In this document: positions 1 through 19,479 of the stretch, one piece after another
Numbering within the stretch: the stretch's first letter is position 1
Layout: each line of letters begins with the position of its first letter
NCBI RefSeq assembly: GCF_944387275.1
Contig: NZ_CALXEG010000002.1
Span: 1-64,000, forward strand
Direction: 5' to 3'
Length of the DNA: 64,000 bases
Source: an uncultured Pseudoflavonifractor sp.
GTDB taxonomy: Bacteria > Bacillota > Clostridia > Oscillospirales > Oscillospiraceae
The notes under the pieces: generated by a model
Databases searched by the model: none
Seen by the model: the letters and a program-made list of their open reading frames with translations, nothing else
What the model was told of the DNA's origin: nothing
Position numbers and translations under genes: made by a program

Positions 1-72
1 ACGGCAGTTAAGCTCACCTGCGCCGAAAATACTTGGCTGGAGACGGCCCGGAAAGATAGGTAACGCCAACAC
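1..72 (+). rRNA. rrf: 5S rRNA, 3' part (5' end outside window)
   Basis: The first bases match the conserved 3' two thirds of bacterial 5S rRNA: the AGTTAAGCTC block, then GCGCCGA, a GGAAAGATAGGT block, and a terminal ACGCC that would pair with the missing 5' end. It is followed at once by two Rho-independent terminators, as expected for the end of an rRNA operon. The start lies beyond the window edge. The exact 3' end is uncertain by a few bases. Confidence 0.85.
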
Positions 73-80
73 AAAGAGTT

Positions 81-115
81 AGAAGCGGCAGACGGATGTC
101 TGCCGCTTCTTTTTT
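81..115 (+). terminator. Rho-independent terminator 1 after 5S rRNA
   Basis: Perfect 13-bp stem (81-93 with 98-110), GGAT loop, then a run of T. It ends the rRNA transcription unit. Confidence 0.9.
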
Positions 116-148
116 GCCGTTTCCGTACCCACCGGAAACGGCTTTTTT
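116..148 (+). terminator. Rho-independent terminator 2, tandem
   Basis: 10-bp stem (116-125 with 133-142) followed by six T. It directly follows the first terminator, a common arrangement downstream of rRNA operons. Confidence 0.85.
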
Positions 149-178
149 AGTCTGGCCAAGTGATGTGAAATCCCCCAT

Positions 179-527
179 GCGGTACCTACTGCGGAGGGTG
201 CCATCCAGATCGCCATGGAGGAGCTGCCCATTACCATCCACGGCGCCCGGGTGCTGGTGATCGGCTATGGCCGGGTGGGCCGCATGACGGCCCAGCGGTT
301 CCAGGCGCTGGGGGCCAGGGTAAGCGTGGCCGCACGGAAATATGCAGATCTGGCCTGGGCGGAGAGCCTTGGCATGGGTGTGGAGCAGACCGGCCACCTT
401 CTGGGCTGGCTGTGCGGCTACGACCTTGTGATCAATACCGTGCCCGTCCGGGTGCTGGGCGAGGCGGAGCTGGGGGACCTGAAGCCGGGCTGCCTGGTCA
501 TTGATCTTGCCTCAAAGCCCGGGGGGG
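179..527 (+). pseudogene. dpaA: Dipicolinate synthase subunit A, middle fragment (left of the element)
   Basis: The frame reads AVPTAEGAIQIAMEE, then a Rossmann glycine motif (VLVIGYGRVGR), then VIDLASKPGG. This is the NAD(P)-binding half of DpaA/SpoVFA, the mother-cell enzyme that with DpaB makes the spore solute dipicolinate. Homology begins abruptly at about 179. An in-frame stop lies at 161, and 5S rRNA plus its terminators lie immediately upstream, so the N-terminal half (roughly 140-150 residues, judged from Bacillus SpoVFA) is not here. At 527 the frame runs into the recombinase element and stops at 545-547 after ten foreign residues. The C-terminal part resumes at 4093. An internal ATG at 215 is not a believable start. 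Confidence 0.9.
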
Positions 528-547
528 CGGAGGAGGCGGTTGGATAA
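510..547 (+). other. Left recombination junction (attL) of the intervening element
   Basis: This contains the gene-side half-site CCTCAAA (510-516), the GGGGG core (523-527) and the element-side arm CGGTTGGATAA (537-547). The same GGGGG occurs at 4093-4097. The arm recurs inverted at 4072-4082, and the gene half-site is mirrored as TTTTGAGG at 4102-4109. Confidence 0.82.
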
Positions 548-556
548 AAAGCTGAC

Positions 557-583
557 ATAGAGACAGGGACGCCCCGATAGAAT
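557..583 (+). promoter_or_regulatory. Possible sigma-E-like promoter of the recombinase genes
   Basis: ATA at 557-559 and GATAGAAT at 576-583, 16 bp apart, resemble the sporulation sigma-E pattern (an ATA -35 core and a CATACAAT-like -10). No good sigma-A promoter is seen here. The match is degenerate and tentative. Confidence 0.35.
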
Positions 584-624
584 GGCAGTGGGCCCCAATA
601 TGGGCCGGAAAGGGGGCGGCTGGC

Positions 625-777
625 GTGAAACGGGCGGAGATCTATCCTGTGACCTGCCGCTATACGGAAGCAGGGCCTACTCTGGAACAGCTACTGGCAG
701 CGCTGTCACGGGAGCGAAGGGAGGCGGGACGGCTTGACGGAACCAAGGGTGGGGCTGTACCTCCGCCTCTCCCGTGA
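625..777 (+). CDS. Hypothetical 50-residue protein, candidate recombination directionality factor
   Basis: A GTG start preceded by AAAGGGGG at about 8 bp gives a 50-residue product beginning VKRAEIYPVTCRYTEAGPTL. The first ~38 residues look protein-like (mixed polar, then a helix LEQLLAALSRERREAG). It overlaps the recombinase start by about 44 bp in another frame, suggesting translational coupling. In C. difficile the sigK skin recombinase needs a small partner protein for excision, and a co-transcribed small ORF here could play that part. I recognise no homology, so the function is inference and the ORF itself may be fortuitous. Confidence 0.4.
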   Translation: MKRAEIYPVTCRYTEAGPTLEQLLAALSRERREAGRLDGTKGGAVPPPLP

Positions 778-2182
778 GGACGAGGAGAAGGGCGAGTCCC
801 AGAGCATTGCCAACCAGCGGGAGTACCTCCGGCAGTACGCATCGGCCCGGGGGTGGTCCGTAGCGGCCATCTACACCGACGACGGCTACACCGGCACCAA
901 CTTTGACCGGCCGGGCTTCCTGCGGCTGCTGGCAGACGTGGAGGCCGGAAGGATCAACACCGTGCTCACCAAGGACCTGTCCCGGCTGGGCAGGGACCAG
1001 ATCGGCACCATGTACTACTACCAGATCTACTTCCCCCAGCGGAGGGTGCGGTATATCGCCGTCAGCGAGGGCATTGACACCGGCGTGGGGGGCAGCGGGG
1101 AGCTGATACTGCCCTTTCTGGCGGCGGCCAACGACTTCTACACCGCCGACATCTCCCGCAAGGTGCGCACGGCCCTGGAGGTACGGAAGAGGAGCGGCCG
1201 CTTCATCGGCGCTCAGCCGCCCATGGGCTACCGGAAGGACCCGGAAACCCCGGGGCGGCTCATCCCCGACCCGGAGACCGGCCCGGTGATCGGGCTGCTG
1301 TTCCGCACCTTCCTCTCCTGCGGCTCCGTCAGCGGCACAGCCAGGGCCCTGACGGCAGGGGGTATCCCCACCCCTTCCCAGTATAAAAAAGGGCCGCAGA
1401 GCCGCTTCCCGGGGCTGTGGAGCGGCACCATGGTGCGGCGTGTCCTCACCAACCCCACCTACGCGGGGCACCTGACCCAGAACCGAGCCAGAAAAGTGGG
1501 ATACAAGGTGGAAAAACGGGTGACACTGCCCAGAGAGGACTGGATCGTTGTGCCCAACACCCACCAGCCCCTGGTGAGCCAGCAGGTCTTTGACCGGGCG
1601 CAGGAGCTGCTGGCCGTGCGGAGCTACGCGCCCCGGACCGGGAGCAGCCATCTGCTGACCGGGCTGGCCTTCTGCGGCGGCTGCGGCTCCCCCATGACCT
1701 ATGTCAGAGGCAGGGGCGGCAGCTGCTACATGGTCTGCCAGGGCAGCCGGAGAGGGGGCTGTCCGTCCTCTCACTGTATGCGGGAGGACGCCGTCATCGA
1801 GACCATCCGCCGCCAGCTGGCGGAACTGGCAGCGGGGATCAGCCGGCAGGCGGAGCCGCCGCAGGAGCAGTCTCGTGGGGAGGGGGAGAGCAGAGCCATA
1901 GACCGCTGGACGGAAGCGGCGGGACTGCTGTACCGGGACCGGGCGGCAGGACTGCTGACCGAGGAGGAGTTCCGCGCCCTGCTGGGAGCGGCGCGCAGAG
2001 CCCGTGAGGCGGCGGAATTTTGCCGGCATCAGGCCAGCGTGGCCCGTGAGGCAGCCCGGCAGGCGGAGGCCCTGGAGCGGCTGGACCGGGACACCCTGAC
2101 CGCCCTGGTGGAGCGGGTGGTGGTGCACCAAGACAAAAACCTGGAGGTGGTGTTCCGCTTCCGCAGGCCGGAGGCAGGCTGA
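734..2182 (+). CDS. Large serine recombinase (SpoIVCA/skin-type)
   Basis: This 482-residue site-specific recombinase cuts and rejoins DNA through a phosphoserine intermediate. The N-terminal resolvase domain (about 1-150) has the nucleophile in YLRLSRED (Ser13) and the KDLSRLGRD motif. It is followed by the recombinase DNA-binding domain (about 165-290, with YAGHLTQNR near its end), then a zinc ribbon (CGGCGSPM near 313 and YMVCQ...GGC), then a coiled coil, and ends FRFRRPEAG. The architecture and length match integrases and skin recombinases rather than small resolvases. The start is TTG at 734, with GGGAGG about 10 bp upstream. It is the only recombinase in the element and so is the likely enzyme for 523/4097 excision. 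Confidence 0.93.
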   Translation: MTEPRVGLYLRLSREDEEKGESQSIANQREYLRQYASARGWSVAAIYTDDGYTGTNFDRPGFLRLLADVEAGRINTVLTKDLSRLGRDQIGTMYYYQIYFPQRRVRYIAVSEGIDTGVGGSGELILPFLAAANDFYTADISRKVRTALEVRKRSGRFIGAQPPMGYRKDPETPGRLIPDPETGPVIGLLFRTFLSCGSVSGTARALTAGGIPTPSQYKKGPQSRFPGLWSGTMVRRVLTNPTYAGHLTQNRARKVGYKVEKRVTLPREDWIVVPNTHQPLVSQQVFDRAQELLAVRSYAPRTGSSHLLTGLAFCGGCGSPMTYVRGRGGSCYMVCQGSRRGGCPSSHCMREDAVIETIRRQLAELAAGISRQAEPPQEQSRGEGESRAIDRWTEAAGLLYRDRAAGLLTEEEFRALLGAARRAREAAEFCRHQASVAREAARQAEALERLDRDTLTALVERVVVHQDKNLEVVFRFRRPEAG

Positions 2183-2191
2183 GGGAACCTC

Positions 2192-2220
2192 TTGTATTCC
2201 GGGCGGATTTATATTAGAAT
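2192..2220 (+). promoter_or_regulatory. Promoter before mgsA
   Basis: TTGTAT, 17 bp, TAGAAT in the recombinase-mgsA gap. It would let the two cargo genes be expressed independently of the recombinase. Confidence 0.5.
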
Positions 2221-2305
2221 TTAAACCGTATGGCCAACCCCCTGGGGGGCGCACCGCCGCGTGCGGGAGCTGCTGGGCGGGAAATCAGTTGAGAGGATGA
2301 GTTCC

Positions 2306-2779
2306 ATGAGAGACGAGACCTTTATCGAGCAGGTGCTGCCCGCCCAGAAGCGGATTGCCCTCATTGCCCACGACAATATGAAGCCGGAGATCATCGACTG
2401 GTGCCAGAAGAACAAGGAGGTCCTGAGCGGCCATTTCCTGTGCGGCACGGGCACCACGGCCCGGATGATCGCCGACCGCACCGGCCTGCCGGTCTACGGC
2501 TACAACAGCGGCCCGCTGGGCGGCGACCAGCAGGTGGGCGCCCAGATCGTGGAGGGAAAAATCGACCTGGTGATCTTCTTCTCCGACCCTCTCACCGCCC
2601 AGCCCCACGACCCGGATGTGAAGGCCCTGCTGCGCATCGCCCAGGTCTATGACATCCCCATTGCCAACAACCGGGCCACCGCCGACTTCCTCATCAGCTC
2701 GCCCCTGATGAGTACCACCTATACCCACTATGTCACCGACTTCAAACAGGCGGTGTCCAAGCGGGCGGCCACCCTGTAA
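2306..2779 (+). CDS. mgsA: Methylglyoxal synthase
   Basis: Converts dihydroxyacetone phosphate to methylglyoxal and phosphate, a cytoplasmic bypass of lower glycolysis that relieves sugar-phosphate stress. The 157-residue length is normal for the family. Family motifs are HDNMK near 22, GTGTTARMI for phosphate binding near 47-55, and SGPLGGDQQVG with the catalytic Asp near 74, then IFFSDPLTAQPHDPDVKAL and PIANNRATADFLI. I chose ATG 2306 because GAGAGG lies about 9 bp upstream; ATG 2297 touches the SD. It lies inside the excisable element together with the following methyltransferase, so it would leave the mother-cell chromosome on excision. Confidence 0.93.
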   Translation: MRDETFIEQVLPAQKRIALIAHDNMKPEIIDWCQKNKEVLSGHFLCGTGTTARMIADRTGLPVYGYNSGPLGGDQQVGAQIVEGKIDLVIFFSDPLTAQPHDPDVKALLRIAQVYDIPIANNRATADFLISSPLMSTTYTHYVTDFKQAVSKRAATL

Positions 2780-2810
2780 GGGCGCGATTCCACAAAAGAG
2801 AGAGGTAACT

Positions 2811-4013
2811 ATGGAGCAGGCAGCAATTCGGCTCAAGCGGGGGGAGGGCCGGTCCTTCAAGGCCGGCGGCCCCTGGATTTACGACAACGAGATCGGGGAG
2901 ATCACCCCCGGCTGTGAGGACGGCGGCATCGTCCGCATCGAGGATTACAACGGCTATGTGCTGGGCTGGGGCTTTCTCAACCGGAAATCCACCATCGCAG
3001 TGCGGGTCCTGTCCCGGAAGGCGGACGCGGTCATCGACGAGGCCTTTCTGGAGGCCCGTGTGCGGGCGGCCTGGCAGTACCGGAAGGACACGGTGGAGAC
3101 CGACAGCTGCCGGGTGATCTTCGGCGAGGCGGACTTCCTCCCCGGCCTGGTGGTGGATAAGTTCTCCGACGTGCTGGTGGTGGAGTCCCTGGCCCTGGGC
3201 ATCGACCGGCTCAAGGACACCATTCTCAAGGCCCTGGTGAAGGTGCTGGCGGAGGACGGGATCACCGTCCGGGGCATCTATGAGCGCAGCGACGCCAAGG
3301 TGCGGCTGAAGGAGGGCATGGAGCGGGTCAAGGGATTTTTGTCCACACCTTTTGACACCAAGGTGGAAATTTCGGAGAACGGCGTGCGCTATCTGGTGGA
3401 CGTGGAGGAGGGCCAGAAGACCGGCTACTTCCTGGACCAGAAGTACAACCGCCGGGCCATCCAGCCCCTGTGCCGGGGCAAGCGGGTGCTGGACTGCTTC
3501 ACCCACACCGGCGCCTTTGCCCTCAACGCCGCTGTGGCGGGGGCACGGGAGGTCGTGGGCGTGGACGCGTCGGAGACCGGCGTGCGCCAGGCGGAGGAGA
3601 ACGCCCGGCTCAACGGCGTGGAGGACCGGGTGAAGTTCCTGTGCCGGGACGTGTTCGACCTGCTGCCCGAGCTGGACCGGGCGGGGGAGCGGTTCGACGT
3701 GGTCATTCTGGACCCGCCGGCCTTCACCAAGTCCCGGGATTCGGTGAAAAAGGCGGTGCGGGGATACCGGGAGATCAATCTGCGGGGCATCCGCCTGGTG
3801 GAGAACGGGGGCTATCTGGCCACCTGCTCCTGCTCCCACTTCATGACGCCCGAACTCTTCACCAACACCATCGCCCAGGCGGCCCGGGACGCCCACCGCC
3901 GCCTGCGGCAGGTGGAGTACCGCACCCAGTCGGCCGACCACCCCATTCTGTGGGGGGCGGACGAGTCCTACTACCTGAAGTTCTATATCTTCCAGGTCTG
4001 CGACGACATGTGA
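2811..4013 (+). CDS. PUA-domain class I SAM-dependent methyltransferase, RlmI-like
   Basis: This 400-residue protein resembles RlmI, which makes 5-methylcytidine in 23S rRNA, though the exact target base is not proven. The N-terminal PUA domain (about 1-80) includes the GGPWIYDNEI and GYVLGWGFLN segments. A linker contains the EEGQKTGYFLDQK motif shared by the RlmI/RlmK group. The Rossmann methyltransferase domain follows, with VLDCFTHTGAFAL (SAM binding), VVGVDAS, VVILDPPAF and a TCSCSHF segment whose Cys fits the catalytic position. ATG 2811 has GAGAGAGG just upstream. It sits 31 bp after mgsA and ends in its own terminator inside the element. Confidence 0.9.
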   Translation: MEQAAIRLKRGEGRSFKAGGPWIYDNEIGEITPGCEDGGIVRIEDYNGYVLGWGFLNRKSTIAVRVLSRKADAVIDEAFLEARVRAAWQYRKDTVETDSCRVIFGEADFLPGLVVDKFSDVLVVESLALGIDRLKDTILKALVKVLAEDGITVRGIYERSDAKVRLKEGMERVKGFLSTPFDTKVEISENGVRYLVDVEEGQKTGYFLDQKYNRRAIQPLCRGKRVLDCFTHTGAFALNAAVAGAREVVGVDASETGVRQAEENARLNGVEDRVKFLCRDVFDLLPELDRAGERFDVVILDPPAFTKSRDSVKKAVRGYREINLRGIRLVENGGYLATCSCSHFMTPELFTNTIAQAARDAHRRLRQVEYRTQSADHPILWGADESYYLKFYIFQVCDDM

Positions 4014-4022
4014 ATACAAGGA

Positions 4023-4061
4023 CATCGGGCTCCCGCATTGGAACGGGAGCCCGATGTTTTT
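4023..4061 (+). terminator. Terminator after the methyltransferase
   Basis: 13-bp stem (4023-4035 with 4044-4056) followed by T-rich sequence. It closes the cargo transcript just inside the right end of the element. Confidence 0.85.
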
Positions 4062-4071
4062 ATGTCCGCGC

Positions 4072-4109
4072 TTATCCAACCGGCAACGCCGCGGGGGTGG
4101 ATTTTGAGG
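4072..4109 (+). other. Right recombination junction (attR) of the intervening element
   Basis: Element arm TTATCCAACCG (4072-4082) is the exact reverse complement of 537-547. The GGGGG core is at 4093-4097, followed by the dpaA half-site TTTTGAGG (4102-4109), which is complementary to the left gene half-site. Confidence 0.82.
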
Positions 4110-4234
4110 CGGCCGCCCGGCTGGGGGTGCGGGTCATCTGGGCCCTGTCCCTGCCGGGCAAGACGGCGCCGGTGACCGCCGGGGAGAGCATCAAAAACAC
4201 CATCTACAACATGTTGAGCGAGTTAGGAGTGTGA
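4093..4234 (+). pseudogene. dpaA: Dipicolinate synthase subunit A, C-terminal exon (right of the element)
   Basis: The frame reads GVDFEAAARLGVRVIWALSLPGKTAPVTAGESIKNTIYNML and ends ELGV at TGA 4232-4234. This is the C-terminus of DpaA, with the family LPGK.AP.TAG segment. There is no start codon or SD of its own, so it is expressed only as part of a restored dpaA. It continues the frame of 179-527 exactly after deletion of 3,570 bp. The stop overlaps the dpaB start region, as in ordinary dpaAB operons. Confidence 0.9.
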
Positions 4235-4236: not shown

Positions 4237-4818
4237 ATGGAAGACTGGAAGGTAGGCTTTGCCTTTTGCGGCTCCTTCTGTACATACGACAAAGCCATGG
4301 CGGCCCTGGAGGAAGTCCACCGGCGGTGGCCGGACGTGACCCCCATCATCTCCGAGCGCAGCGCCGCCACGGACACCCGCTTCGGCAACGCCCACGACTT
4401 TATGCGGGAGATGCAGCGCATCTGCGACAGGCGGCCCATCGACTCCATCCGGGCCGCCGAGCCCATCGGCCCCAAGAAGCTGTTGGATGTGCTGGTCATC
4501 TGCCCCTGCACGGGCAACACCCTGGCCAAGCTGGCCGCCGGCATCACCGACTCCTCGGTGACCATGGCGGCCAAGGCCCACCTGCGCAACGGCCGGCCCC
4601 TGGTCATCGCTGTGGCCACCAACGACGGCCTGGCCTCCAGCGCGAAGAACATCGGCGCGCTGCTGGACAAGAAAAACGTGTACTTTGTCCCCTTCCGCCA
4701 GGACGACCCGGAGGGCAAGCCCACCTCCCTGGTGGCGGACTTTGACCGCATCCCCGAGACGGTGGAGGCGGCCATGGCGGGCAGGCAGGTCCAGCCCGTG
4801 CTGCTGGGCAGCCTCTGA
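4237..4818 (+). CDS. dpaB: Dipicolinate synthase subunit B
   Basis: A 193-residue flavoprotein-family subunit of dipicolinate synthase (SpoVFB). Together with DpaA it converts the lysine-pathway product to dipicolinic acid in the mother cell. Family features are GFAFCGSFCTY at the N-terminus, PIISE, PLDVLVICPCTGNTLAKLA, and MAAKAHLRNGRPLVIAVATNDGL. The start is ATG 4237 with TAGGAG 7 bp upstream; GTG 4231 is an alternative. With dpaA split, the downstream position means its transcript either comes from within the element or is only full-length after excision. It is intact. Confidence 0.95.
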   Translation: MEDWKVGFAFCGSFCTYDKAMAALEEVHRRWPDVTPIISERSAATDTRFGNAHDFMREMQRICDRRPIDSIRAAEPIGPKKLLDVLVICPCTGNTLAKLAAGITDSSVTMAAKAHLRNGRPLVIAVATNDGLASSAKNIGALLDKKNVYFVPFRQDDPEGKPTSLVADFDRIPETVEAAMAGRQVQPVLLGSL

Positions 4819-4834
4819 ACAGGAGAAAACGCAG

Positions 4835-4864
4835 ACAGCCCGCGCCGGTACCGGCGCGGGCTGT
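4835..4864 (+). terminator. Hairpin after dpaB
   Basis: A perfect 15-bp palindromic stem (4835-4849 with 4850-4864) lies just after the dpaB stop. The T-run is weak, so it may act as a stability hairpin. From 4897 a 16-codon remnant frame (MKKMLSLADSYPTVKL) follows; it may be debris. Confidence 0.6.
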
Positions 4865-5000
4865 TCATGCAAAGGAAGGAAAGAGGGATACATGAAATGA
4901 AGAAGATGCTGTCTCTCGCTGATTCTTATCCTACGGTAAAATTGTAAACAAAGAAAACAAAAAGTATTACAAAAGATTTAAATCATCAGAAAAAATAAAA

Positions 5001-5033
5001 AACGGAGCGCTCCCCAAAGAGGGAGCGCTCCGT
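5001..5033 (-). terminator. Terminator of the VanW-family gene
   Basis: 12-bp stem (5003-5014 with 5021-5032) with an A-run on the + strand, so a U-run for leftward transcripts. Confidence 0.85.
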
Positions 5034-5038
5034 CTGGT

Positions 5039-6964
5039 TCAGTTGGCCGGTTCGGAGGGATTGACGATGGGGATTCCCTCCGGCGGGGTGTTGCCGTCGG
5101 CGTCCGGGGTGGCGGAGGGGGAGGACGACGGGGACTCAGAGGGCGTGTCCGACGGCGACGGGGAGGGGGACTGGGAGGGCGGCGTGCTCTCCGAGGGGGA
5201 GGGCGTCACCGACTGGGACGGCGACGGGGAGGGAGAGGCCGAAGGCGCGGTGCTCTCCGAGGGAGAGGGCGAGGGGCTGGTCACCGGCGTCAGATTCCGC
5301 AGGCCGGTGGCCGGGTCGATACCCAGAGCGGCGGCGTCGGCCGGGTTGTAGAAGTAGTAGGCGTTGCGGACAGAGAAGGTGTCGGTGTGAATGACGGTGT
5401 CGCTGATGACGTTGCCGTCGGCATCCCGCAGGCGCTGGTGGACCTCCACCTTCTTGCCGGTGTAGCCGGTGCGGGTGGAGTCCTTCTGGGGCTGGCTGCC
5501 CTGGGGCACCGAGTCCTTGGCCTCGTAGTAGGTCTCATAGGGGATGGTCTCCAGCAGCACGGAGTAGGGGTCGCCGTAGATGCCGGTGGTGTTGGTGCCG
5601 TAGATGGTCACGTTGCACCAGCGGGTACCGTTGCTGTCCTTGGTCAGGGTGGCGACGACCTTGATGGGGTAGTCGGTGTTGTTCTTGAACTTGAAGTCAA
5701 GGGTATCGCTGTACACGGTGGCGTCCATGCCGGAGGGCAGGTAGCCCACGTCGTACTTGTGCTTGGTGCGCTCCACGGTCTCCAGGTTGGCCTTCAGTGT
5801 GGTGTAGTAGATGGTGGAGGAGAGCTGGCACACGCCGCCTGCCCAGGTGTCCTGGGTGGTGCCGCTGACGTAGGCGCCCGCCTTCAGGTAGCCGCCGGCC
5901 TGGGAGTAGGGTCCGCACAGCTCGTTGTAGGAGAACACCTCGCCGGGCAGCAGGATGGTGCCGTTGACCCGCTCACAGGCGGTCTCCACGTTGTGCCAGC
6001 GGTTGGAGGGACCGGAGGTCTTGGTGCTGCTCTTGCCCAGCACGTCCTTGAACAGGCTGGACTCCAGCTTTTCGGTGGTCATGTCCGGCTCGGTCAGGGT
6101 GAGGGGCACCTCGCACTCCGCCCCCTCCTCGGTGCGCTCCATCAGGGCCTGGGCGGTGGAGATGCCGAAGCTGACGCCGGTGACCGACGGGACGATCTCG
6201 CTGGTCTCCTTGTCCAGATAGGCGTCCACCGGCTCCTTGTACACCTCCCGGTAGATGGCCTCAAAGTCCAGCGCCTCAGGGGGCGTGACGTGGGGGGCCA
6301 CTTCGATGGAGGTGCGGCCGGTGAGCAGGCTGTCGATAACCAGGTCCCGGAAGTCGGCGGCGTTGACGCTCAGGCCGGAGACGCCCTTGTGGATGACCAG
6401 GGCGGTGTCGGTCACCTCATAGGTGCTCTCGGTGAGGCCGGAGTCCAGCGCCTTGGTCAGCTCGCCGGGCAGGGCGGTGAGCAGCTGCTCCAGCTCCGCG
6501 GAGGGCTGGGGCTGGGCGGTAATGGCGTAGCCGCCGCCGAAGGTGGCCTTCAGCCAGGCGATGCCGCCGCCCAGAAAGCCCTGCTCCCGGCCGTGGGACC
6601 AGGCGTCAGCCGACAGGGACGCCGCGTCCAGCTGAAACAGGGGGCCGCTGCCGGTGACATCCCGGTCCAGCTGGGGGTACTCGCTGCTGGTCAGCTGGAA
6701 GGAGGTGGGGTACCAGCCCTCAGCCTCCTGACTGATGGTCTGGGAGGCCTGCTCCTGGGTCATACCGGACAGGTCCAGGGTGTGGTCCTCCACCGTCAGG
6801 GTGGTGTTGGGCAGGATCCGCCCGGTGCTCACCCAGGCGCACAGGGCCACGTAGGCCCCGGCCAGGAGGACCAGAAGTACGACGATCACGATGACGGCAA
6901 CCTTAGCGCCGCCGGATTTGCTTTTTTTTGGCATGACGCGCTTGCCGTCCGCGCTGTTTCCCAT
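5039..6964 (-). CDS. VanW-family cell-surface protein with Ser/Pro-rich tail
   Basis: About 641 residues. Residues 15-45 form a basic N-terminus plus one transmembrane segment (VAVIVIVVLLVLLAGAYVAL), placing the rest outside the membrane. A YoaR-like region with repeated peptidoglycan-binding-like folds spans about 50-300. The VanW domain spans about 315-440 (NRWHNVETACERVNGTILLPGEVFSYNE, then GGVCQLSSTIYY). A G5-like segment follows near 480-530, and the C-terminal ~75 residues are low-complexity Ser/Pro/Thr. VanW function is unknown; the domain occurs in cell-wall proteins. ATG 6964 has GGAG 8 bp upstream and is preferred over GTG 6973. Its promoter lies at 7009-7037. Confidence 0.85.
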   Translation of the reverse strand: MGNSADGKRVMPKKSKSGGAKVAVIVIVVLLVLLAGAYVALCAWVSTGRILPNTTLTVEDHTLDLSGMTQEQASQTISQEAEGWYPTSFQLTSSEYPQLDRDVTGSGPLFQLDAASLSADAWSHGREQGFLGGGIAWLKATFGGGYAITAQPQPSAELEQLLTALPGELTKALDSGLTESTYEVTDTALVIHKGVSGLSVNAADFRDLVIDSLLTGRTSIEVAPHVTPPEALDFEAIYREVYKEPVDAYLDKETSEIVPSVTGVSFGISTAQALMERTEEGAECEVPLTLTEPDMTTEKLESSLFKDVLGKSSTKTSGPSNRWHNVETACERVNGTILLPGEVFSYNELCGPYSQAGGYLKAGAYVSGTTQDTWAGGVCQLSSTIYYTTLKANLETVERTKHKYDVGYLPSGMDATVYSDTLDFKFKNNTDYPIKVVATLTKDSNGTRWCNVTIYGTNTTGIYGDPYSVLLETIPYETYYEAKDSVPQGSQPQKDSTRTGYTGKKVEVHQRLRDADGNVISDTVIHTDTFSVRNAYYFYNPADAAALGIDPATGLRNLTPVTSPSPSPSESTAPSASPSPSPSQSVTPSPSESTPPSQSPSPSPSDTPSESPSSSPSATPDADGNTPPEGIPIVNPSEPAN

Positions 6965-7378
6965 GATAATCACTCCAATATCCCGCAGAATCTACGAAAT
7001 CAGTATACATTATAGGGCCCGGTGCCGGGGAAAGCAATTACAGAACGGTTACACATTTGCCCGGCTGTACCGGGCGGACCGGTCCGGGCCGCCGCCGGAG
7101 GGAAACCGGATGGGAACCCCGCCCCTCTTTACAAGAAAGTGCTTTCGTTGTATCATATCTCCATCCATACCCACGGCTGTACCGTGGGCATTCCGGCCCG
7201 GAGCGGGCGGCCCGTCCTGGCCATTGTATCACATTTTATGGACCGTGGGCGGGAAAGAACATAAATTTTAAAGATTTTAAAGAAAAAATCAATCTATTTT
7301 TTCCACAGATATGATATTATATGATCCAGCAGGAGACGGCGGCCGGTCCGCCGGAGCGGAATATAGGAGGCGCTACCC
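6965..7378. other. Divergent intergenic region
   Basis: It holds the leftward promoter below and, at 7255-7320, a very AT-rich stretch that probably contains the rightward promoter of the XpaC gene (a TATTAT-like -10 near 7314; no confident -35). Between 7040 and 7250 I see no gene; open frames there have no SD or recognisable protein. Confidence 0.5.
7009..7037 (-). promoter_or_regulatory. Promoter of the VanW-family gene
   Basis: On the minus strand: TTGCTT, 17 bp, TATAAT, about 45 bp upstream of the ATG. Confidence 0.7.
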
Positions 7379-8647
7379 ATGGCGTACAGCTACAACAACA
7401 ACAGCGGCGGCAGCAACAACGGGGACTTGATATCCTGGATTGTGGTGGTGGCCGCGCTGGTGATCTTCTGGCCTGTGGGCCTGGTGCTGCTGTTCATGAA
7501 GCTGACGGGCCGGTCCTTCGGCAGCAGGCGGAACAACGGCAGTTCCTACGGCTCCAGCCCCACCGGGCCCTACCGCGCTTCGGGCAGCCAGTCCTGGGGC
7601 CAGAGCTCGGGCTATAAGTACGAGTACCGCTATCAGGGCCAGAGCGCACCCCGCCAGGGCGGCCAGACCACCCAGAATACACAGACCAGCCAGAATGCAC
7701 AGAGGACCACCCAGCCTGGGATGCAGGGCGTCAGCGACCAGCCCCGGGACAAGAAGGGACGGTTTATGCCCAAGCGCCGGCCTGTGGATCTGAACAAGGG
7801 CAAGGGCATGATGGTCTGGGGCACGATCCTGGCCATCTTGGGCGGTTTCATCTCCTTTGTGGAGTTCTTCGACACCATGGGCATGGGCTTTATCTACATG
7901 CTTCAGAGCATCGGCTTCCCTCTGGGTGTGCTGGGCGCGGGCCTGGTGCTGCTGGTGTGCGGCACCCAGCGGAACAAGAAGGCCAAGCGCTTCCGCAAGT
8001 ACTTAGCCCTCATCGGCAAGCGGGAGAGCATCTCCATCGGCTCCCTGGCCCAGGCCATGCCCGTGTCCTACCACACCGCCTGTGATGACATCCAGGAGAT
8101 GCTGGACGAGGGGTATATCCCCACCGGCTACCTGGACATGGCCAGCGGCCGCCTGATCCTGTCCGACGAGGGGCTCCAGGAGGAGCCCGAGCCTGAGGAG
8201 GAGGAGCAGCCCGCGCCGCCGGAGGACGACGACGCCATCCTCCGGGAGATCCGCCAGGTGAACGACGCCATTGAGGACCCGGTGATGAGCGAGAAGATCG
8301 ACCGCATCGGCGAGATCACCGGCAAGATCCTGGACTACCAGAGGAAGAACCCCAACAAGAACAGCCAGCTGCGCAGCTTCCTCAACTACTACCTGCCCAC
8401 CACCCTGAAGATCCTGAAGGCCTACGCCCAGATGGAGGCCCAGGGCATCGAGGGGGAGAACATCTCCGCCGCCAAAGAGCGGATTGAGGGCATGATGGAC
8501 AAGGTGGTGGAGGGCTTTGAGAAGCAGCTTGACAAGCTCTTCCAGGACGACGCCATGGACATCACCACCGACGTGGAGGTGCTGGAGCGGATGCTGGACA
8601 AGGACGGCCTCTCCGGCAAGGGCGACGGCTTCCAGATGGGGATATAG
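7379..8647 (+). CDS. XpaC-domain membrane protein
   Basis: 422 residues. Residues 15-40 form a first transmembrane helix (LISWIVVVAALVIFWPVGLVLLFM). A Gly/Ser/Gln-rich linker of about 90 residues follows, then two more helices near 140-200. A cytoplasmic winged-helix-like segment (SISIGSLAQAMPVSYHTACDDIQEMLDEGYI) precedes an acidic stretch. The C-terminal region (DRIGEITGKILDYQRKNPNKNSQLRSFLNYYLPTTLKILKAY) is the 5-bromo-4-chloroindolyl phosphate hydrolysis (XpaC) family. Such proteins often sit with TelA-type proteins, absent here. The biochemical role is unknown; despite the name it is probably not itself a phosphatase. Confidence 0.8.
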   Translation: MAYSYNNNSGGSNNGDLISWIVVVAALVIFWPVGLVLLFMKLTGRSFGSRRNNGSSYGSSPTGPYRASGSQSWGQSSGYKYEYRYQGQSAPRQGGQTTQNTQTSQNAQRTTQPGMQGVSDQPRDKKGRFMPKRRPVDLNKGKGMMVWGTILAILGGFISFVEFFDTMGMGFIYMLQSIGFPLGVLGAGLVLLVCGTQRNKKAKRFRKYLALIGKRESISIGSLAQAMPVSYHTACDDIQEMLDEGYIPTGYLDMASGRLILSDEGLQEEPEPEEEEQPAPPEDDDAILREIRQVNDAIEDPVMSEKIDRIGEITGKILDYQRKNPNKNSQLRSFLNYYLPTTLKILKAYAQMEAQGIEGENISAAKERIEGMMDKVVEGFEKQLDKLFQDDAMDITTDVEVLERMLDKDGLSGKGDGFQMGI

Positions 8648-8717
8648 CAGAACCTGACATCAAGCAGAAATCCCGTGAGACGGCATGCAGGCCGCCCCAC
8701 GGGATTTTTTTGCGCTG

Positions 8718-9083
8718 TCAGGGCAGCACCACGCCGTACTGGTCCATCACGTCGTGGAGGCCCTCCTCGATCTCCTGGCGGGAGAAATTGCCCTCCTCCA
8801 GCTCCTGGTCGGAGAGCAGGTTCAGGCGGAAGTAGAAGTCCACCGCCACCTCCAGAAGAGCGGGGTCATCCTCATCCAGGGCGGAGAAGAGCAGGTCCTC
8901 TCCGTCGGCAATGCGGCCCTCCCGCAGCAGGGCGTTGAGGGAGGCGTGAAGGCTGTCGGCGGCGGTCAGGGTCTCCCGCCCGCCGTGGTTCTCGTACTCT
9001 GCCGTGTCTTTGTGGAACATAATTTTGGCAATGGCCAGGGTCAAGGTCTCGATCTGGCGCATCATCCAGTCCTGAGTCAGCAT
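8718..9083 (-). CDS. DUF6483-family protein
   Basis: 121 residues, soluble, acidic and helical. The opening MLTQDWMMRQIETLTLAIAKIMFHKDT matches a small Firmicutes family of unknown function (DUF6483, from memory). The C-terminus is rich in Leu/Glu helices (DQELEEGNFSRQEIEEGLHDVMDQYGVVLP). It is monocistronic and convergent with the XpaC-domain gene. The start is supported by GAGAGGAG upstream. Confidence 0.65.
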   Translation of the reverse strand: MLTQDWMMRQIETLTLAIAKIMFHKDTAEYENHGGRETLTAADSLHASLNALLREGRIADGEDLLFSALDEDDPALLEVAVDFYFRLNLLSDQELEEGNFSRQEIEEGLHDVMDQYGVVLP

Positions 9084-9132
9084 AACAGAGGGCTCCTCTC
9101 CGGAGAATTATCCCAATAGGGGGACTTTTATA

Positions 9133-9218
9133 GAACACTAGTTTGATTAACATAAGAAAGTTGTATTGACGCCGAGGACGGCAGGTGGTAAGATAGACGA
9201 GAACTAGAACACAAGTTC
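9133..9218 (+). promoter_or_regulatory. Promoter flanked by LexA-like operators
   Basis: TTGACG (9166-9171), 17 bp, TAAGAT (9189-9194). A perfect GAAC-N4-GTTC box, the Gram-positive LexA core, lies at 9207-9218. A GAAC-N4-GTTT variant lies at 9133-9144. The downstream box covers the likely +1 region, a repressing position. Confidence 0.5.
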
Positions 9219-9254
9219 TATTTACCCCGGGGAACATACAGCAGGGAAGGGGGG

Positions 9255-9383
9255 ATGCATAACGTCCGGCGGGAGGATGGGCGGAGCCGGACAGGGAAGC
9301 AGCGCTGGTGCGGCACGAGCAGTGGACAGGTTCGACCGCGTTGCAGGGGAAAAATTTTCATCAGTGTACCACACTTCCGGTGA
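9255..9383 (+). CDS. Possible 42-residue basic peptide
   Basis: ATG 9255 follows AGGAAGGGGGG and encodes MHNVRREDGRSRTGKQRWCG..., rich in Arg/Lys, with no recognisable domain. It is the first open frame after the promoter with the LexA-like box, so a damage-induced peptide is conceivable. There is no homology evidence, and it may be spurious. Confidence 0.2.
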   Translation: MHNVRREDGRSRTGKQRWCGTSSGQVRPRCRGKIFISVPHFR

Positions 9384-9587
9384 AAAGTAAATTTCCGTTT
9401 TCCTGAGACACAAGAGGCGAACACAGCCAGGAGCCGGTTCGGATCCACCGGACAAAAGAAAAACGGCAACCTCAATGAGGTCACCAAGGAGGACGCCGCC
9501 GGAGGCGGCACCAAACCGGAGCCCAGCGGAGCGGGTTCGGTTTGGGAAGGAAGAGCAGCAGAATGAGCGCGCTCTGATTTTGATAAA

Positions 9588-9621
9588 AAATCAGAGCAAG
9601 CGATATGACGCTTGCTCTGAC
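9588..9621 (-). terminator. Terminator of the tRNA-Thr/tRNA-Tyr unit
   Basis: Inverted repeat TCAGAGCAAGCG/CGCTTGCTCTGA, with the minus-strand U-run encoded by the A-run at 9585-9590. Confidence 0.8.
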
Positions 9622-9622
9622 G

Positions 9623-9707
9623 TGGTGGAGGAGGGTGGATTCGAACCACCGAAGCGAGACGCAACAGATTTACAGTCTGCCCCCTTTGGCCACTCGGGAA
9701 CTCCTCC
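9623..9707 (-). tRNA. tRNA-Tyr (GTA)
   Basis: On the minus strand it starts GGAGGAG and ends CTCCTCC-A-CCA, with CCA encoded. The anticodon loop reads CTGTAAA, giving anticodon GTA. The long variable arm makes it 85 nt, as expected for bacterial tRNA-Tyr, and the T-arm GGTTCGAATCC is intact. Confidence 0.97.
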
Positions 9708-9719
9708 ATATGAAATTAT

Positions 9720-9795
9720 TGGAGCTGGTGGACGGACTCGAACCCCCGACCTGCTGATTACAAATCAGCTGCTCTACCAACTGAGCTACACCAGC
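9720..9795 (-). tRNA. tRNA-Thr (TGT)
   Basis: 76 nt on the minus strand from GCTGGTG to CACCAGC-T-CCA, CCA encoded. Anticodon stem CTGAT/ATCAG with TGT, intact D- and T-arms. Transcribed first in the pair, 12 bp before tRNA-Tyr. Confidence 0.97.
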
Positions 9796-9828
9796 GTTTC
9801 AGCTCTCAGCTCGTCCACAACGTTGCTT

Positions 9829-9857
9829 ATTATATCAGGCAAAGGGAGGGTTGTCAA
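9829..9857 (-). promoter_or_regulatory. Promoter of the tRNA pair
   Basis: On the minus strand: TTGACA, 17 bp, TATAAT, a consensus sigma-A promoter about 35 bp before tRNA-Thr. Confidence 0.9.
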
Positions 9858-9940
9858 CAGGAAAAGCAAAAAAATTTCAAAAAATTTTGAGAGGGCGGAA
9901 TGGGCGTCCAAAGGACAGGAGAGGAAGCACGAACGGGAGG

Positions 9941-10198
9941 ATTTTTACCGATCCGCTGCGGGATGTGCAGCGGGAACCGGCGGCGGCCTGGTGCAGGCGC
10001 TGCCGGCAGGAGATCTACGCCTGGGAGCTGGCGGAGGGGGAGGACCTGTGTCCCCAGTGCCGGGCGGAGGAAAAACGAGAGGGAATGGAGCGAAGCAAGG
10101 AGATACATGACGTTACTGGAGATGTCAGTGGAATACCGGGCCCAGGCCCAGGTCCTGCGGCGGCGGATCAGCGAGCTGGAGCTGCGCCGCGCCAATGA
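9941..10198 (+). CDS. Possible small zinc-ribbon protein (start uncertain)
   Basis: The frame reads TDPLRDVQREPAAAWCRRCRQEIYAWELAEGEDLCPQCRAEEKREG. The two Cys pairs (CRRC...CPQC) look like a genuine zinc ribbon. No ATG, GTG or TTG is well placed: GGGAGG at 9935 leads only to ATT at 9941, and the next candidate is GTG near 9962. The last ~30 codons overlap the next gene and look unconstrained. It may use a rare start or be decaying. It precedes the phage-type pair below and may form one operon with it. Confidence 0.35.
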   Translation: MFTDPLRDVQREPAAAWCRRCRQEIYAWELAEGEDLCPQCRAEEKREGMERSKEIHDVTGDVSGIPGPGPGPAAADQRAGAAPRQ

Positions 10199-10340
10199 GC
10201 CGGACGCCACCGAGCGGCTGGTTCTGGAGGACCGCATCAGAATTTTGGAGACAATGTGGCGGGAGGCCAGGGATCTGGCCGTGGTCACGGAGCGATATTA
10301 CGACAGGGGGTATTGGCGCAATGTCAAATACGCGATATAA
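10107..10340 (+). CDS. Small coiled-coil protein paired with a sigma-like factor
   Basis: 77 residues, mostly one long charged helix (SVEYRAQAQVLRRRISELELRRANEPDATERLVLEDRIRILETMWREARDLAVVTERYY). I recognise the type: it commonly precedes a short sigma-70 region-4-like protein in Clostridia, but its role is not known to me. The start ATG 10107 follows AGCAAGGAG. It ends within the first codons of the next gene (10338-10340), so translation is coupled. Possible roles are partner or anti-sigma-like binding, not shown by the sequence. Confidence 0.65.
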   Translation: MTLLEMSVEYRAQAQVLRRRISELELRRANEPDATERLVLEDRIRILETMWREARDLAVVTERYYDRGYWRNVKYAI

Positions 10341-10644
10341 GAGGGGCGGCGCCTACGCCGCGGACATGGCGGTGTACGCCAGGACTATGGCGGAGGACAA
10401 CCGGGCCCAGCGTTCCCGGCTGCGGCGCAACCTGATCCGGGCCCTTCAGGAGGACGTGACCCCCCATCAGCGGCGGGCCCTGCTGCTCTACTATGCCGAG
10501 GGCCTCAACATGCGGGAGATCGGGGAGCGGCTGGGGGTGGACAAGTCCACCGTCTCCCGCACCATCAAGCGGGGCGAGCGCCGCCTGCGCCGCTGCCTGC
10601 GGTACGGGGCCGCCAGCCTGCTCAACGCCCAAGAGGAGAACTGA
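10321..10644 (+). CDS. Sigma-70 region-4-like DNA-binding protein
   Basis: 107 residues. The core LQEDVTPHQRRALLLYYAEGLNMREIGERLGVDKSTVSRTIKRGERRLRRCLRY is a sigma region 4 helix-turn-helix. Regions 2 and 3 are absent, so it cannot be a complete sigma factor. It resembles small phage- or element-derived sigma-like proteins. The start ATG 10321 lies inside the preceding gene. It is very Arg-rich outside the HTH. It ends at a strong terminator. Confidence 0.75.
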   Translation: MSNTRYKRGGAYAADMAVYARTMAEDNRAQRSRLRRNLIRALQEDVTPHQRRALLLYYAEGLNMREIGERLGVDKSTVSRTIKRGERRLRRCLRYGAASLLNAQEEN

Positions 10645-10650
10645 ATTGAC

Positions 10651-10687
10651 AGATGGCCGCGCCATTGGGCGCGGCCATCTGCGTTTT
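10651..10687 (+). terminator. Terminator after the sigma-like gene
   Basis: 13-bp GC-rich stem (10651-10663 with 10668-10680) followed by GCGTTTT. Confidence 0.8.
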
Positions 10688-10716
10688 CGGCGGAATAGAA
10701 ATTTTACGTCTCCCTA

Positions 10717-10768
10717 TTGACAGCGGCTGTTATCTGTGTTTATACTGTATATGATGAGTATACACAGT
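10717..10768 (+). promoter_or_regulatory. Promoter and GntR/YtrA-type operator
   Basis: TTGACA (10717-10722), 18 bp, TATACT (10741-10746). Overlapping the -10 and +1 is an inverted repeat ACTGTATA (10744-10751)/TATACACAGT (10759-10768), the form of site bound by YtrA-subfamily GntR repressors, so autoregulation is likely. Confidence 0.7.
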
Positions 10769-10785
10769 AAAACGAGGTGCACCGA

Positions 10786-11160
10786 ATGGATATTATCATC
10801 AGCAATGCCGGCGGGGTGCCCATCTACGACCAGATCACCCGGCAGATCAAGGGCCTGATCCTGCGGGGTGAGCTGAAGGAGGGGGAGGCCCTCCCCTCCA
10901 TGCGGCTGCTGGCCAGGGAGCTGCGCATTTCCGTCATCACCACGAAACGAGCCTATGAAGAGCTGGAGCGTGAGGGGTTCATTACCACGGTCCCGGGGAA
11001 GGGATGCTTTGTGGCGCCCCAGGACCCGGCGCTGGCCCGTGAGGAGACCCTCCGCCGGGTGGAGGAGCACCTGACCAGGGCTGTGGAGGCCGCCAAAGTG
11101 GGCGGCATCACCCTGGAGGAGATGACCGACACCCTCAACATCCTGTATGGAGACGAATAA
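10786..11160 (+). CDS. GntR-family (YtrA subfamily) repressor
   Basis: About 124 residues. The winged helix spans residues 10-75 (PIYDQITRQIKGLILRGELKEGEALPSMRLLARELRISVITTKRAYEELEREGFITTVPGKGCFV) with a short C-terminal helical dimerisation region, the YtrA layout without a ligand-binding domain. ATG 10786 follows GAGGTG; GTG 10777 is an alternative. It heads an operon with an ABC exporter, and such regulators usually repress the adjacent ABC genes and respond to cell-envelope-active compounds. Confidence 0.9.
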   Translation: MDIIISNAGGVPIYDQITRQIKGLILRGELKEGEALPSMRLLARELRISVITTKRAYEELEREGFITTVPGKGCFVAPQDPALAREETLRRVEEHLTRAVEAAKVGGITLEEMTDTLNILYGDE

Positions 11161-11161
11161 T

Positions 11162-12025
11162 ATGGAAAACGCCATTGAAATCCGCCATCTCACCAAAGAT
11201 TACGGCAGCTTCAAGCTGGACGACGTGTCCTTCGACGTGCCCATGGGCACGGTTGTGGGCCTGATCGGCGAGAACGGCGCCGGAAAATCCACCACCATCA
11301 AGTGCATTCTGAACCTGATCCGCCGGGACGGCGGGGAGATTGTGCTGCTGGGCCGGGACAACATCGCCGACGAGCGGGCGGCCAAGGAGGAGATCGGGGT
11401 GGTGCTGGACGAGTCCACCTTCCACGACACCCTGCGCTCCGGCGATGTGGGGAAAATCCTCCGCCGGATCTATAAGAACTGGGACCAGCGGTTCTTTGAA
11501 CAGCTGCTGAAGAAGTTCGACCTGCCGGAGAAAAAGCTCCTGAAGGACTACTCCCGGGGCATGAAGATGAAGCTGTCCATTGCGGCGGCCCTGTCGGCCA
11601 GGCCCCGGCTGCTCATTCTGGACGAGGCCACCGGCGGCCTGGACCCGGTGGTGCGGGACGAGATCCTGGACCAGTTCCTGGACTTTGTCCGGGACGAGGA
11701 CCACGCCATCCTCATCTCCAGCCACATCACCACCGACCTAGAGAAGGCGGCGGACTACGTGGTCTACCTCCACAAGGGCAAGGTGGCCCTCCAGGGGGCC
11801 AAGGACGAGCTGCTGGAGGAGTACGGCCGCCTGGTGTGCGGCAGAGCCGACCTGGACAAGGTGGACCGGGCCTTCCTGGTGGGCGTGCGGGAGAGCCAGT
11901 TCAGCTGTGAGGCCCTGGTACGGGACCGGGAGAAGTTTGTCCGGCTCTACCCGGCGCTGACCGTGGACCGGGTGACCCTGGACGAGATCATGGTCTTTAC
12001 CGCGAAGGGGGATGTAGCGTCATGA
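11162..12025 (+). CDS. ABC transporter ATP-binding protein
   Basis: 287 residues. Walker A is GENGAGKST (about 41-49), the signature is degenerate (YSRGMKMKLSIA in place of LSGGQ), Walker B is LLILDEAT, and the switch is SSHITTDLEKAADYV. The C-terminal extension (about 220-287) is typical of ABC-2 exporters. It starts 1-2 bp after the GntR stop with GGAG 9 bp upstream. It forms an exporter with the next gene; the substrate is unknown, with antimicrobial or lipophilic compounds the usual guess for YtrA-linked systems. Confidence 0.92.
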   Translation: MENAIEIRHLTKDYGSFKLDDVSFDVPMGTVVGLIGENGAGKSTTIKCILNLIRRDGGEIVLLGRDNIADERAAKEEIGVVLDESTFHDTLRSGDVGKILRRIYKNWDQRFFEQLLKKFDLPEKKLLKDYSRGMKMKLSIAAALSARPRLLILDEATGGLDPVVRDEILDQFLDFVRDEDHAILISSHITTDLEKAADYVVYLHKGKVALQGAKDELLEEYGRLVCGRADLDKVDRAFLVGVRESQFSCEALVRDREKFVRLYPALTVDRVTLDEIMVFTAKGDVAS

Positions 12026-14753: not shown

Positions 14754-14794
14754 AAACCAGGGGTCCCCGCACATAGAAAAAAACGGGGACCTCA

Positions 14795-14957
14795 GGATAG
14801 CGCTCCACATGCTGTGACAGTCCGGACGGTGTTCCCGTACGGCCCAGGCCGCGCCGCCCAGGCAGGCGAAGCGACCTTCGGCGGTGCGCCCTCTCCCCGC
14901 GGGACGGCTGCCTGGCCTTGTCCCGGAGTACGCATGCGTACCGCGCCTCTATCCTCT
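14795..14957 (-). promoter_or_regulatory. Lysine riboswitch (L-box)
   Basis: On the minus strand the RNA opens GGATAGAGGCGCGG and closes GGACTGTCA...GGAGCGCTATCC. These are the lysine-riboswitch P1 strands and conserved core, with GCACCGCCGAAGG internally and a GCGTACTCCGGGA loop-E-like segment. P1 pairs GGATAG with CTATCC. Followed by a terminator, so lysine should switch off the downstream transporter. Confidence 0.92.
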
Positions 14958-15145
14958 TATTAAAGAAGCGTAAGTATCCTATCATGGGTTCCAGGGATTG
15001 TCAAGGCTGAATCCGCCTTTTTGCGCGGTAAGGCTTTGTGCGATATGACGATTTTTGAAATACATCTTTACACCAATAATTTATCATGGTAGTATACTAA
15101 AGCAAGAAGGCGAATCACCGGCGCCTGACAGAAGGAGGATATATC

Positions 15146-19089: not shown

Positions 19090-19479
19090 TCATATAGGCT
19101 TGGGCCGGTTCACCCGCCGTGAGATTGCCCACACTACCCAGGCGGCCAGGCAGCCCAGCACCGGGGACACGCACCACCAGCCCGCCAGGACCCATGCCAG
19201 GACATACCACTCGGCGGAGGCCACAAACCACAGCCCGGGGACGGCCAGCAGGGCGGCGGGCAGGAGGATGCGCCACCGCAACTTCGCCGTCCGGCACAGG
19301 AGCAGCTCCAGGAAGAACATGGGGATAAAGTGGGCGTACAGCAGCAGGAGCTGATGCCACGGGGGGATATCCAGGGGGAGGTCGGCAAAGGCCGTGGCGA
19401 AAATGGCGGCGTAGGCGGCAAAGGAGATCAGGGTGAGGGACAGCAGGACGCGGTTTGCCGTTTCACGCATGGGAGCCAT
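19090..19479 (-). CDS. Hypothetical four-helix membrane protein
   Basis: 129 residues with about four transmembrane segments (VLLSLTLISFAAYAAIFATAFA, LLLLYAHFIPMFFLELLLC, WRILLPAALLAVPGLWFVA, GCLAAWVVWAI). I do not recognise the family. GAGGTG precedes ATG 19479. It lies downstream of two other leftward membrane genes and the LytTR regulator, 25 bp after the preceding stop, so is probably in that operon. Confidence 0.6.
   Translation of the reverse strand: MAPMRETANRVLLSLTLISFAAYAAIFATAFADLPLDIPPWHQLLLLYAHFIPMFFLELLLCRTAKLRWRILLPAALLAVPGLWFVASAEWYVLAWVLAGWWCVSPVLGCLAAWVVWAISRRVNRPKPI

Follow-up and report, generated by a model that had tools for sequence, protein, structure and literature searches.

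The window analyzed here, that is, the whole stretch of 64,000 nucleotides from the start of contig NZ_CALXEG010000002.1 (C2) of an uncultured Pseudoflavonifractor sp. (family Oscillospiraceae), begins close to an interrupted dpaA, the gene for a subunit of dipicolinate synthase, which is followed by a whole dpaB. A search of the draft genome to which the window belongs (G000; 2.8 Mb, 74 contigs, 82% complete) found no whole dpaA; instead, there are three pieces of the gene that encode residues 1-131, 131-245 and 246-290. The last two pieces lie in the window on the two sides (site B) of a 3,570-bp element (element B) that encodes a large serine recombinase (LSR1), the methylglyoxal synthase mgsA, an rlmI-like methyltransferase and small open reading frames (ORFs). 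The missing 5' part, identified by searching the G000 contigs, resides on the minus strand of contig C1 beside a second large serine recombinase (LSR2), and appears to be separated from the middle piece (site A) by another element (element A) with ends on C1 and C2. The features at this locus are the following.

1..71, plus strand: 3' part of a 5S ribosomal RNA (rRNA) gene, with which the rRNA unit of element A ends on the right; the remainder of the unit falls in an assembly gap
81..150, plus strand: two terminator-like hairpins of element A, read by eye, which align with the terminators of rRNA operon R1 (contig C25), not with those of R2
164..207, plus strand: attR of element A, with the core GCGGTACCT at 179-187 and a probable crossover at 185|186
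182..527, plus strand: middle piece of dpaA (residues 131-245; positions 134-249 of profile NF006162, E 1.4e-40), its last bases common with the core of element B
503..546, plus strand: attL of element B, with the core GGGGG at 523-527 and a probable crossover at 524|525
625..777, plus strand: 50-codon ORF overlapping the start of LSR1, a candidate recombination directionality factor (RDF) by its place only
734..2182, plus strand: LSR1, 482 amino acids, of the site-B lineage, with PF00239, PF07508 and PF13408 over cut-off
2306..2779, plus strand: mgsA, methylglyoxal synthase, cargo (NF003559, 204.7 bits, cut-off 84)
2811..4013, plus strand: rlmI-like class I rRNA methyltransferase, cargo (PF10672 and PF17785 over cut-off, best NCBIfam matches under theirs)
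4073..4116, plus strand: attR of element B, with the core GGGGG at 4093-4097 and a probable crossover at 4094|4095
4097..4234, plus strand: 3' piece of dpaA, 45 codons (residues 246-290) and the stop (NF006162 positions 249-290)
4237..4818, plus strand: whole dpaB, dipicolinate synthase subunit B (NF006161, 276 bits, cut-off 156)

On C1, dpaA runs up to GCGGTACCT, the core that is common to the end of this piece and to window positions 179-187, and is followed by a small ORF, LSR2 (502 amino acids) and, where the contig ends, a promoter-like region. Joined at the two short shared cores, the three pieces yield one open frame, a 290-codon DpaA without a stop. Like the genes interrupted by sporulation-gene-intervening elements (skin, vfbin, gin, spsM/SPbeta and yin), dpaA is a sporulation gene that is split with its parts kept, and recombination between the short shared cores is predicted to restore the frame exactly at both sites. 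Each element has its own recombinase with domains of large serine recombinases (a resolvase catalytic domain, a recombinase domain and a zinc ribbon in full form), LSR1 in element B and LSR2 in element A (in the latter case, the precomputed domains are PF00239 and PF07508, with PF13408 not listed).

An earlier reading of the window (hereafter, the original prediction) described a skin-like serine-recombinase element inside dpaA with an exact in-frame junction. The element is indeed there, and the NF006162 positions of the two dpaA parts in the window meet at 249, which corresponds to DpaA residue 245/246. The GGGGG repeats at 523-527 and 4093-4097 are present as claimed, and the proposed arms, CGGTTGGATAA at 537-547 and TTATCCAACCG at 4072-4082, along with CCTCAAA at 510-516 and TTTTGAGG at 4102-4109, are correctly placed. 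The attP-like dyad centred on one G|G step holds up as well: in the circle junction of element B, 16 of 22 positions pair about 524|525 (binomial P about 1e-5 at p = 0.27 per position, if positions are independent), and the dyad has its centre at 524|525 and 4094|4095 alike. The likeness to skin is borne out insofar as an element with a large serine recombinase sits in a spore gene, but it does not extend to phage genes, in place of which the cargo consists of mgsA and the rlmI-like gene. Family profile scans (no PHROGs search was made) recognized no phage or transfer gene in element B; a prophage in the window was considered and rejected, as no phage gene was recognized in these scans.

Two other points need correction. 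The left dpaA fragment of the window proves to be the central part of the gene, not its whole 5' half: it begins only at residue 131, and the sequence before 179 is the 5S rRNA tail with terminators. Because of this, and because the 5' part is on C1, deletion of element B alone would restore no whole DpaA, so that its excision could not by itself switch on dipicolinate synthesis as had been proposed; dpaA is broken again at codon 132.

When the attR of element A in the window is combined with its attL on C1, 18 of the 22 positions of the resulting attP pair. As assembled, element A consists of its ends only (LSR2 and rRNA flanks), with no phage genes there. In both G000 and the sister species G001, LSR2 is followed by an rRNA-type leader, and the other end of the element carries a 5S tail and terminators. 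The sequence at 1..71, for which the Rfam scan of the window gave no call of the cut 5S, matches the 5S tail of other operons, and the same tail is found at the matching contig end of G001. The 16S gene was not found in the G000 or G001 assemblies. In the single-contig genome G002, operon R1 (16S at 582595) has a homologue of G001 contig C77 upstream and a homologue of G000 contig C25 downstream, and the 5S of another operon is followed by a homologue of C11. The leader of element A matches that of R1 (in a comparison without the R2 leader), as do its terminators, which do not match those of R2; an additional copy of R1 is thus the most likely content of element A, with the 16S-23S part presumed. 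A single element with a single rRNA operon would then bridge contigs C1 and C2.

Splits of dpaA at the same two places are found in at least 25 genomes from 13 genera of the family (24 besides G000): 12 at site A only, 6 at site B only, 6 at both sites (G000, G001, G002, G171, G189 and G430), and one at site B with a likely split at site A (G049). Among the 400 family genomes sampled, 312 had a dpaA match and 88 had none at E 1e-9; because of these 88, because split places were partly listed, and because only 38 genomes were re-examined, the count is a lower bound. It leaves aside G142, G259 and G058, which are possible further splits but incomplete, and G190, in which the parts are 12 bp apart. 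Relatives with a different junction would have spoken against the original prediction; instead, the place of the junction recurs across the family. Split and whole dpaA coexist within several genera, and dpaB is over the family cut-off in all 25 split-dpaA genomes. The other families of the order were represented by 38 genomes among 99 sampled relatives, and no genome of these showed a pair of dpaA matches at E 1e-9, single partial matches being outside this count. Named homologues suggest that the family with the splits is Oscillospiraceae, near Flavonifractor and Pseudoflavonifractor.

The 31 junctions comprise 18 at site A and 13 at site B; 24 are on one contig in normal order, and 6, all at site A and including those of G000 and G001, stretch across contigs. 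On single contigs in normal order, the elements range from 2.7 to 43.1 kb at site A (n = 11) and from 3.6 to 44.5 kb at site B (n = 13). On contig C10 of G344, the dpaA parts (132375-132770 and 393814-394293; L149 and L150) are in the wrong order, 262 kb apart, such that excision would split the chromosome rather than free a short element; this is either a misassembly or a rearrangement.

Over the 31 junctions, the breaks fall at NAV-P/TAEG at site A and at KPG-G/VDF or its equivalent at site B, the joins being picked by the best protein score among those with at least 2 shared bases. For a dyad test, one base step per site was fixed from the dpaA codons, attP was built from the element ends, and 22 positions were scored. 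At the anchored step, the mean number of paired positions was 14.67 of 22 at site A (18 of 18 junctions, including G031 as mis-joined) and 15.42 of 22 at site B (12 of 13, with G299 left out for lack of an anchor), compared with only 3.2-8.4 of 22 at the 16 steps shifted by 1 to 8 either way. Single junctions reach P<0.01 in 15 of 18 cases at site A and 9 of 12 at site B. As judged by eye, attP arms are shared across genera, with TATCCAA..TTGGATA in many site-B elements and TGTCC..GGACA in many site-A elements.

Large serine recombinases (LSRs) were found in 17 of the 18 site-A elements (none in the G031 stretch examined) and in all 13 site-B elements, and every element with an LSR has one from the lineage of its own site (G189 and G344 were placed by hand). 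In local alignments, self matches apart, the site-A LSRs are 41-78% identical to LSR2 and at most 31% to LSR1, and the site-B LSRs are 44-82% identical to LSR1 and at most 32% to LSR2; LSR1 and LSR2 are about 28% identical to each other. In a tree of 109 LSRs (FastTree, midpoint root), 12 site-B LSRs including LSR1 form one clade (support 99), and 23 site-A LSRs form one group with a single outsider, L089, from a Neobacillus metagenome-assembled genome with no dpaA found nearby. The tree leaves out LSRs shorter than 400 amino acids (including those of G405 and G142), 5 of the 6 other G000 LSR loci, and 3 of the 80 contig loci mentioned below (two duplicates and one without a long frame). The best NCBIfam match of LSR1 is XisF, at 106.6 bits, far below the cut-off of 375, so that LSR1 is not a member of this family by score.

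Among the best 80 loci of a contig scan with the LSR2 alignment, the closest is 59% identical (best segment), and dpaA sequence is present at 6. In viral contigs, none of the 160 best loci from two scans had dpaA sequence beside the LSR within the stretch examined, and the site-B-type LSRs among the best 80 were at most 36% identical to the LSR1 query (44% to the LSR of G299). A 97-kb viral-collection record (L214; IMGVR_UViG_2513237329_000015) has several LSR genes clustered at its end (4479-11407), the last of which matches the site-A LSR of G376 at 99.8% over 1,414 bp with the 5' end lacking; because of this truncation and of the other LSR genes clustered with it, we do not use the record as proof of a phage.

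Several LSR loci are of separate note. The G000 draft contains nine LSR-domain matches. In the site-A element of G046 (contig C17; L056), two LSRs of the site-A type face opposite ways and no attP dyad is clear; this element is perhaps a composite of two. In G405 (contig C7; L161), the frame of the site-B LSR is only 324 amino acids long; it is possibly broken at the N-terminus and, if so, could not rebuild dpaA alone.

Judged by eye, many elements have a small ORF that ends at the LSR start or overlaps it and carries a motif particular to the lineage; this holds for 9 of the 13 site-B elements and for 8 of the 17 site-A elements in which an LSR was found. In the Bacillus subtilis skin element, the RDF gene skr (64 amino acids) overlaps the start of the LSR gene spoIVCA by 101 nt (PMC6957869). 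Given that skr occupies the same place, the small upstream ORFs are candidate RDFs.

The large elements of G002 carry host-type cargo as well. The 32.5-kb site-A element of G002 contains trp, GerA-type germination, pyruvate-formate-lyase-like and zinc uptake families (26 ORFs scanned), with a T-box at L049 15529-15771 accompanying the trp gene families; the single trpA match of G002 lies inside this element. The 44.5-kb site-B element of the same genome contains metabolic families (34 ORFs scanned). No phage or transfer family is present among the best 25 of 42 and the best 25 of 60 families in these two elements. The closest mgsA of G002 is located elsewhere on the chromosome, outside the element, and therefore host genes have moved in or out of the elements. 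In G024, the families of the element are instead those of restriction-modification, helicases and DarT/macro proteins (scan of 30 of 31 chosen ORFs).

Comparison of G000 with G001, the two species that share the entire two-element architecture, shows purifying selection on the dpaA pieces and on both LSRs. For this one genome pair, the ratio of nonsynonymous to synonymous substitution rates (dN/dS), calculated with our own Nei-Gojobori script, is 0.104, 0.068 and 0.000 for the three dpaA pieces (the last of only 45 codons), 0.084 for dpaB, 0.209 for LSR1, 0.252 for LSR2, 0.071 for mgsA and 0.063 for the rlmI-like gene, with no stops in any of them, at a dS of 0.2-0.5. The spore gene spoIVA was found in 6 of 6 genomes queried, in two parts in G001 (contig C2, minus strand, 19347-19628 and 50310-51515, about 30.7 kb apart; L357 and L358). 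At one end of the G001 gap is an LSR of 562 amino acids, 38% identical to LSR2 over 377 amino acids, and the joined flanks give SIHMIRADIETEV, which matches the whole G000 gene; spoIVA of G001 is likely a further interrupted mother-cell gene.

In B. subtilis, spoVF is under sigma-K control. A sigma-K-like site is present upstream of dpaA in both species, although, with the consensus used, it was equalled in 4.5% of shuffles of the G000 stretch. Before 32 LSRs, sigma-E-like sites average 3.91 mismatches versus 4.77 in composition shuffles (standard deviation 0.12), and sigma-K-like sites average 2.31 versus 2.56 (standard deviation 0.10); these averages weigh little because dinucleotides are not preserved in the shuffles and LSR1 and LSR2 themselves have poor sites in front of them.

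Taken together, these observations make it likely that dpaA is a three-piece gene from which two LSR elements are both excised in the sporulating mother cell before DpaA is made. Each LSR, with its small partner ORF, would recombine its own attL and attR and free the element as a circle, leaving an exact codon junction in dpaA; both LSRs would be needed before DpaA could be produced, a two-input condition. The precedents and the sigma-K-like site before dpaA suggest that excision would be confined to the mother cell, and the forespore would pass on the interrupted gene. The mother cell would discard mgsA, the rlmI-like gene and the rRNA operon, a loss that would be affordable because this cell dies.

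A number of points weigh against this scenario. Excision is a prediction from sequence, and the middle of element A is unassembled in both G000 and G001. No convincing mother-cell promoter was detected before LSR1 or LSR2 of G000, where the best sites are sigma-E-like with 5 mismatches and sigma-K-like with 2 and 3. The orientation of the LSR relative to dpaA differs among elements, so that read-through from the dpaA promoter cannot be a general trigger. Since joins were chosen by protein score, being in frame is partly a selected property, although the fixed dyad step is unaffected by this choice. The binomial P values presume independent positions, and 6 of the 30 anchored junctions have no dyad at P<0.01 (site A of G046 and G189; site B of G001, G045 and G189; and site A of G031, the last through mis-joining, with 15 of 22 positions paired after re-anchoring). 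One of these, with 11 of 22 positions paired, is the sister-species copy of element B itself. Finally, there are extra LSRs of neither lineage in the site-A stretch of G325 (contig C44, 8182-9933; L170) and near site A in G049 (contig C1, 155046-156212; L174).

Under a rather unlikely alternative, the elements are still mobile, dpaA is a safe landing site, and its restoration is a by-product that is not timed to sporulation. The same sites hold elements of 2.7 to 44 kb with differing cargo, intact and split dpaA occur inside one genus, and the target is small and within conserved codons, the kind that phage integrases favour. However, no transfer or phage gene was recognized in element B of G000 or among the best 25 of 42 and of 60 families in the two G002 elements, and G000 and G001 have retained the same elements.

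It is improbable that C1 and C2 are not neighbours, with the 5' break of dpaA representing an assembly artefact or a rearrangement of the chromosome by way of its rRNA operons. Both contigs run into rRNA sequence at their ends, a classic site of false joins or real rearrangements, and G344 has dpaA parts in the wrong order on one contig; this explanation has to contend, however, with the identical ends in G001, the attP dyad of 18/22 across C1 and C2, the 11 other genomes that show an interrupted site A within one contig and in normal order, and the match of terminators and leader to R1. We similarly give little credence to the possibility that these are ordinary mobile elements in the decaying dpaA of lineages that do not sporulate or make dipicolinate otherwise: an insertion in a coding gene normally kills it, and dpaA loss may occur given that 88 of 400 family genomes (many incomplete) have no match at E 1e-9, but the dN/dS of the dpaA pieces (0-0.10) is similar to that of dpaB, the architecture is common to two species at dS 0.2-0.5, dpaB is over cut-off in 25/25 genomes, and spoIVA is present in the 6/6 queried.

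The likely excision of elements from dpaA has precedents, and the two that were named originally, the sigK skin and the element in spoVFB, are apt. The sigK skin elements of B. subtilis and Clostridioides difficile, which carry an LSR, divide a sporulation gene of the mother cell and leave it by precise excision, and the layout of dpaA is alike; the differences are that here the target is dpaA, two elements are in one gene, no phage gene was recognized, and excision is predicted. The vfbin element interrupts spoVFB (dpaB) in Bacillus weihenstephanensis (PMC6957869, PMC10747680), that is, the other subunit gene of the same enzyme; likened by description only, it differs in the gene, the lineage and being a single element. 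The gin element in gerE of Bacillus cereus ATCC10987 also has no phage genes, carries an LSR and its RDF (GirC, GirX), and rebuilds a sporulation gene (PMC5595907); it is 28.6 kb long with three LSRs at one site, whereas dpaA has two sites, either of which is served by a separate LSR lineage, and the cargo is of host type. In yin, a single prophage-like element in yabG of Clostridium botulinum, the recombinase likewise lies beside the 5' part of the split gene (PMC10747680). XisF and the fdxN element of Anabaena (fdxN is named in PMC6957869) offer a case of developmental excision in a terminal cell, in another organism and another development. The proposed restriction of excision to the mother cell follows such precedents (PMC6957869, PMC5025042, PMC5595907, PMC10747680).

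The split genes met in the accessible literature are sigK, spoVFB, spoVR, spsM, gerE, yabG and kamA, and the known sporulation-gene splitters in the first six of these are single elements in Bacillus and Clostridium-type hosts. Within the accessible open-licence literature, we did not meet a split dpaA/spoVFA (papers that pair dpaA with "skin element" (PMC3789822) being outside this scope), two elements interrupting one gene, or any such element with an rRNA operon in its interior (papers that pair rRNA operons with integrative elements being outside this scope). The dpaA elements are a well-supported addition to the sporulation-gene-intervening elements, with a new target, two sites, two LSR lineages and host-type cargo, their excision being predicted. 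Some cyanobacterial nif genes contain several interruption elements.

A broader interpretation, for which we see the odds as about even, is that the Oscillospiraceae dpaA is closed by two locks, in the form of two LSR lineages that are each attached to a single codon step in the gene, and requires double excision, while the elements serve as parking places for core host genes (rRNA operon, trp genes, mgsA and germination genes). Sporulation would then include programmed elimination, whereby the "soma" (mother cell) sheds ordinary chromosome that the "germ line" (spore) retains.

A single spore gene is thus hit repeatedly, at two positions and in 25 of the genomes sampled from one family, by elements of two recombinase lineages, and the att sites can be read from the sequence. 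The co-evolution of integrases with their sites, double excision and the fate of host genes inside elements become directly testable, and about 30 sets of LSR, attP and attB are obtained. Surveys of gene content may wrongly score such bacteria as dpaA-negative.

Elsewhere in the window, on the minus strand, there are two tRNA genes at 9626-9795 and a lysine riboswitch at 14790-14959 (81 bits).

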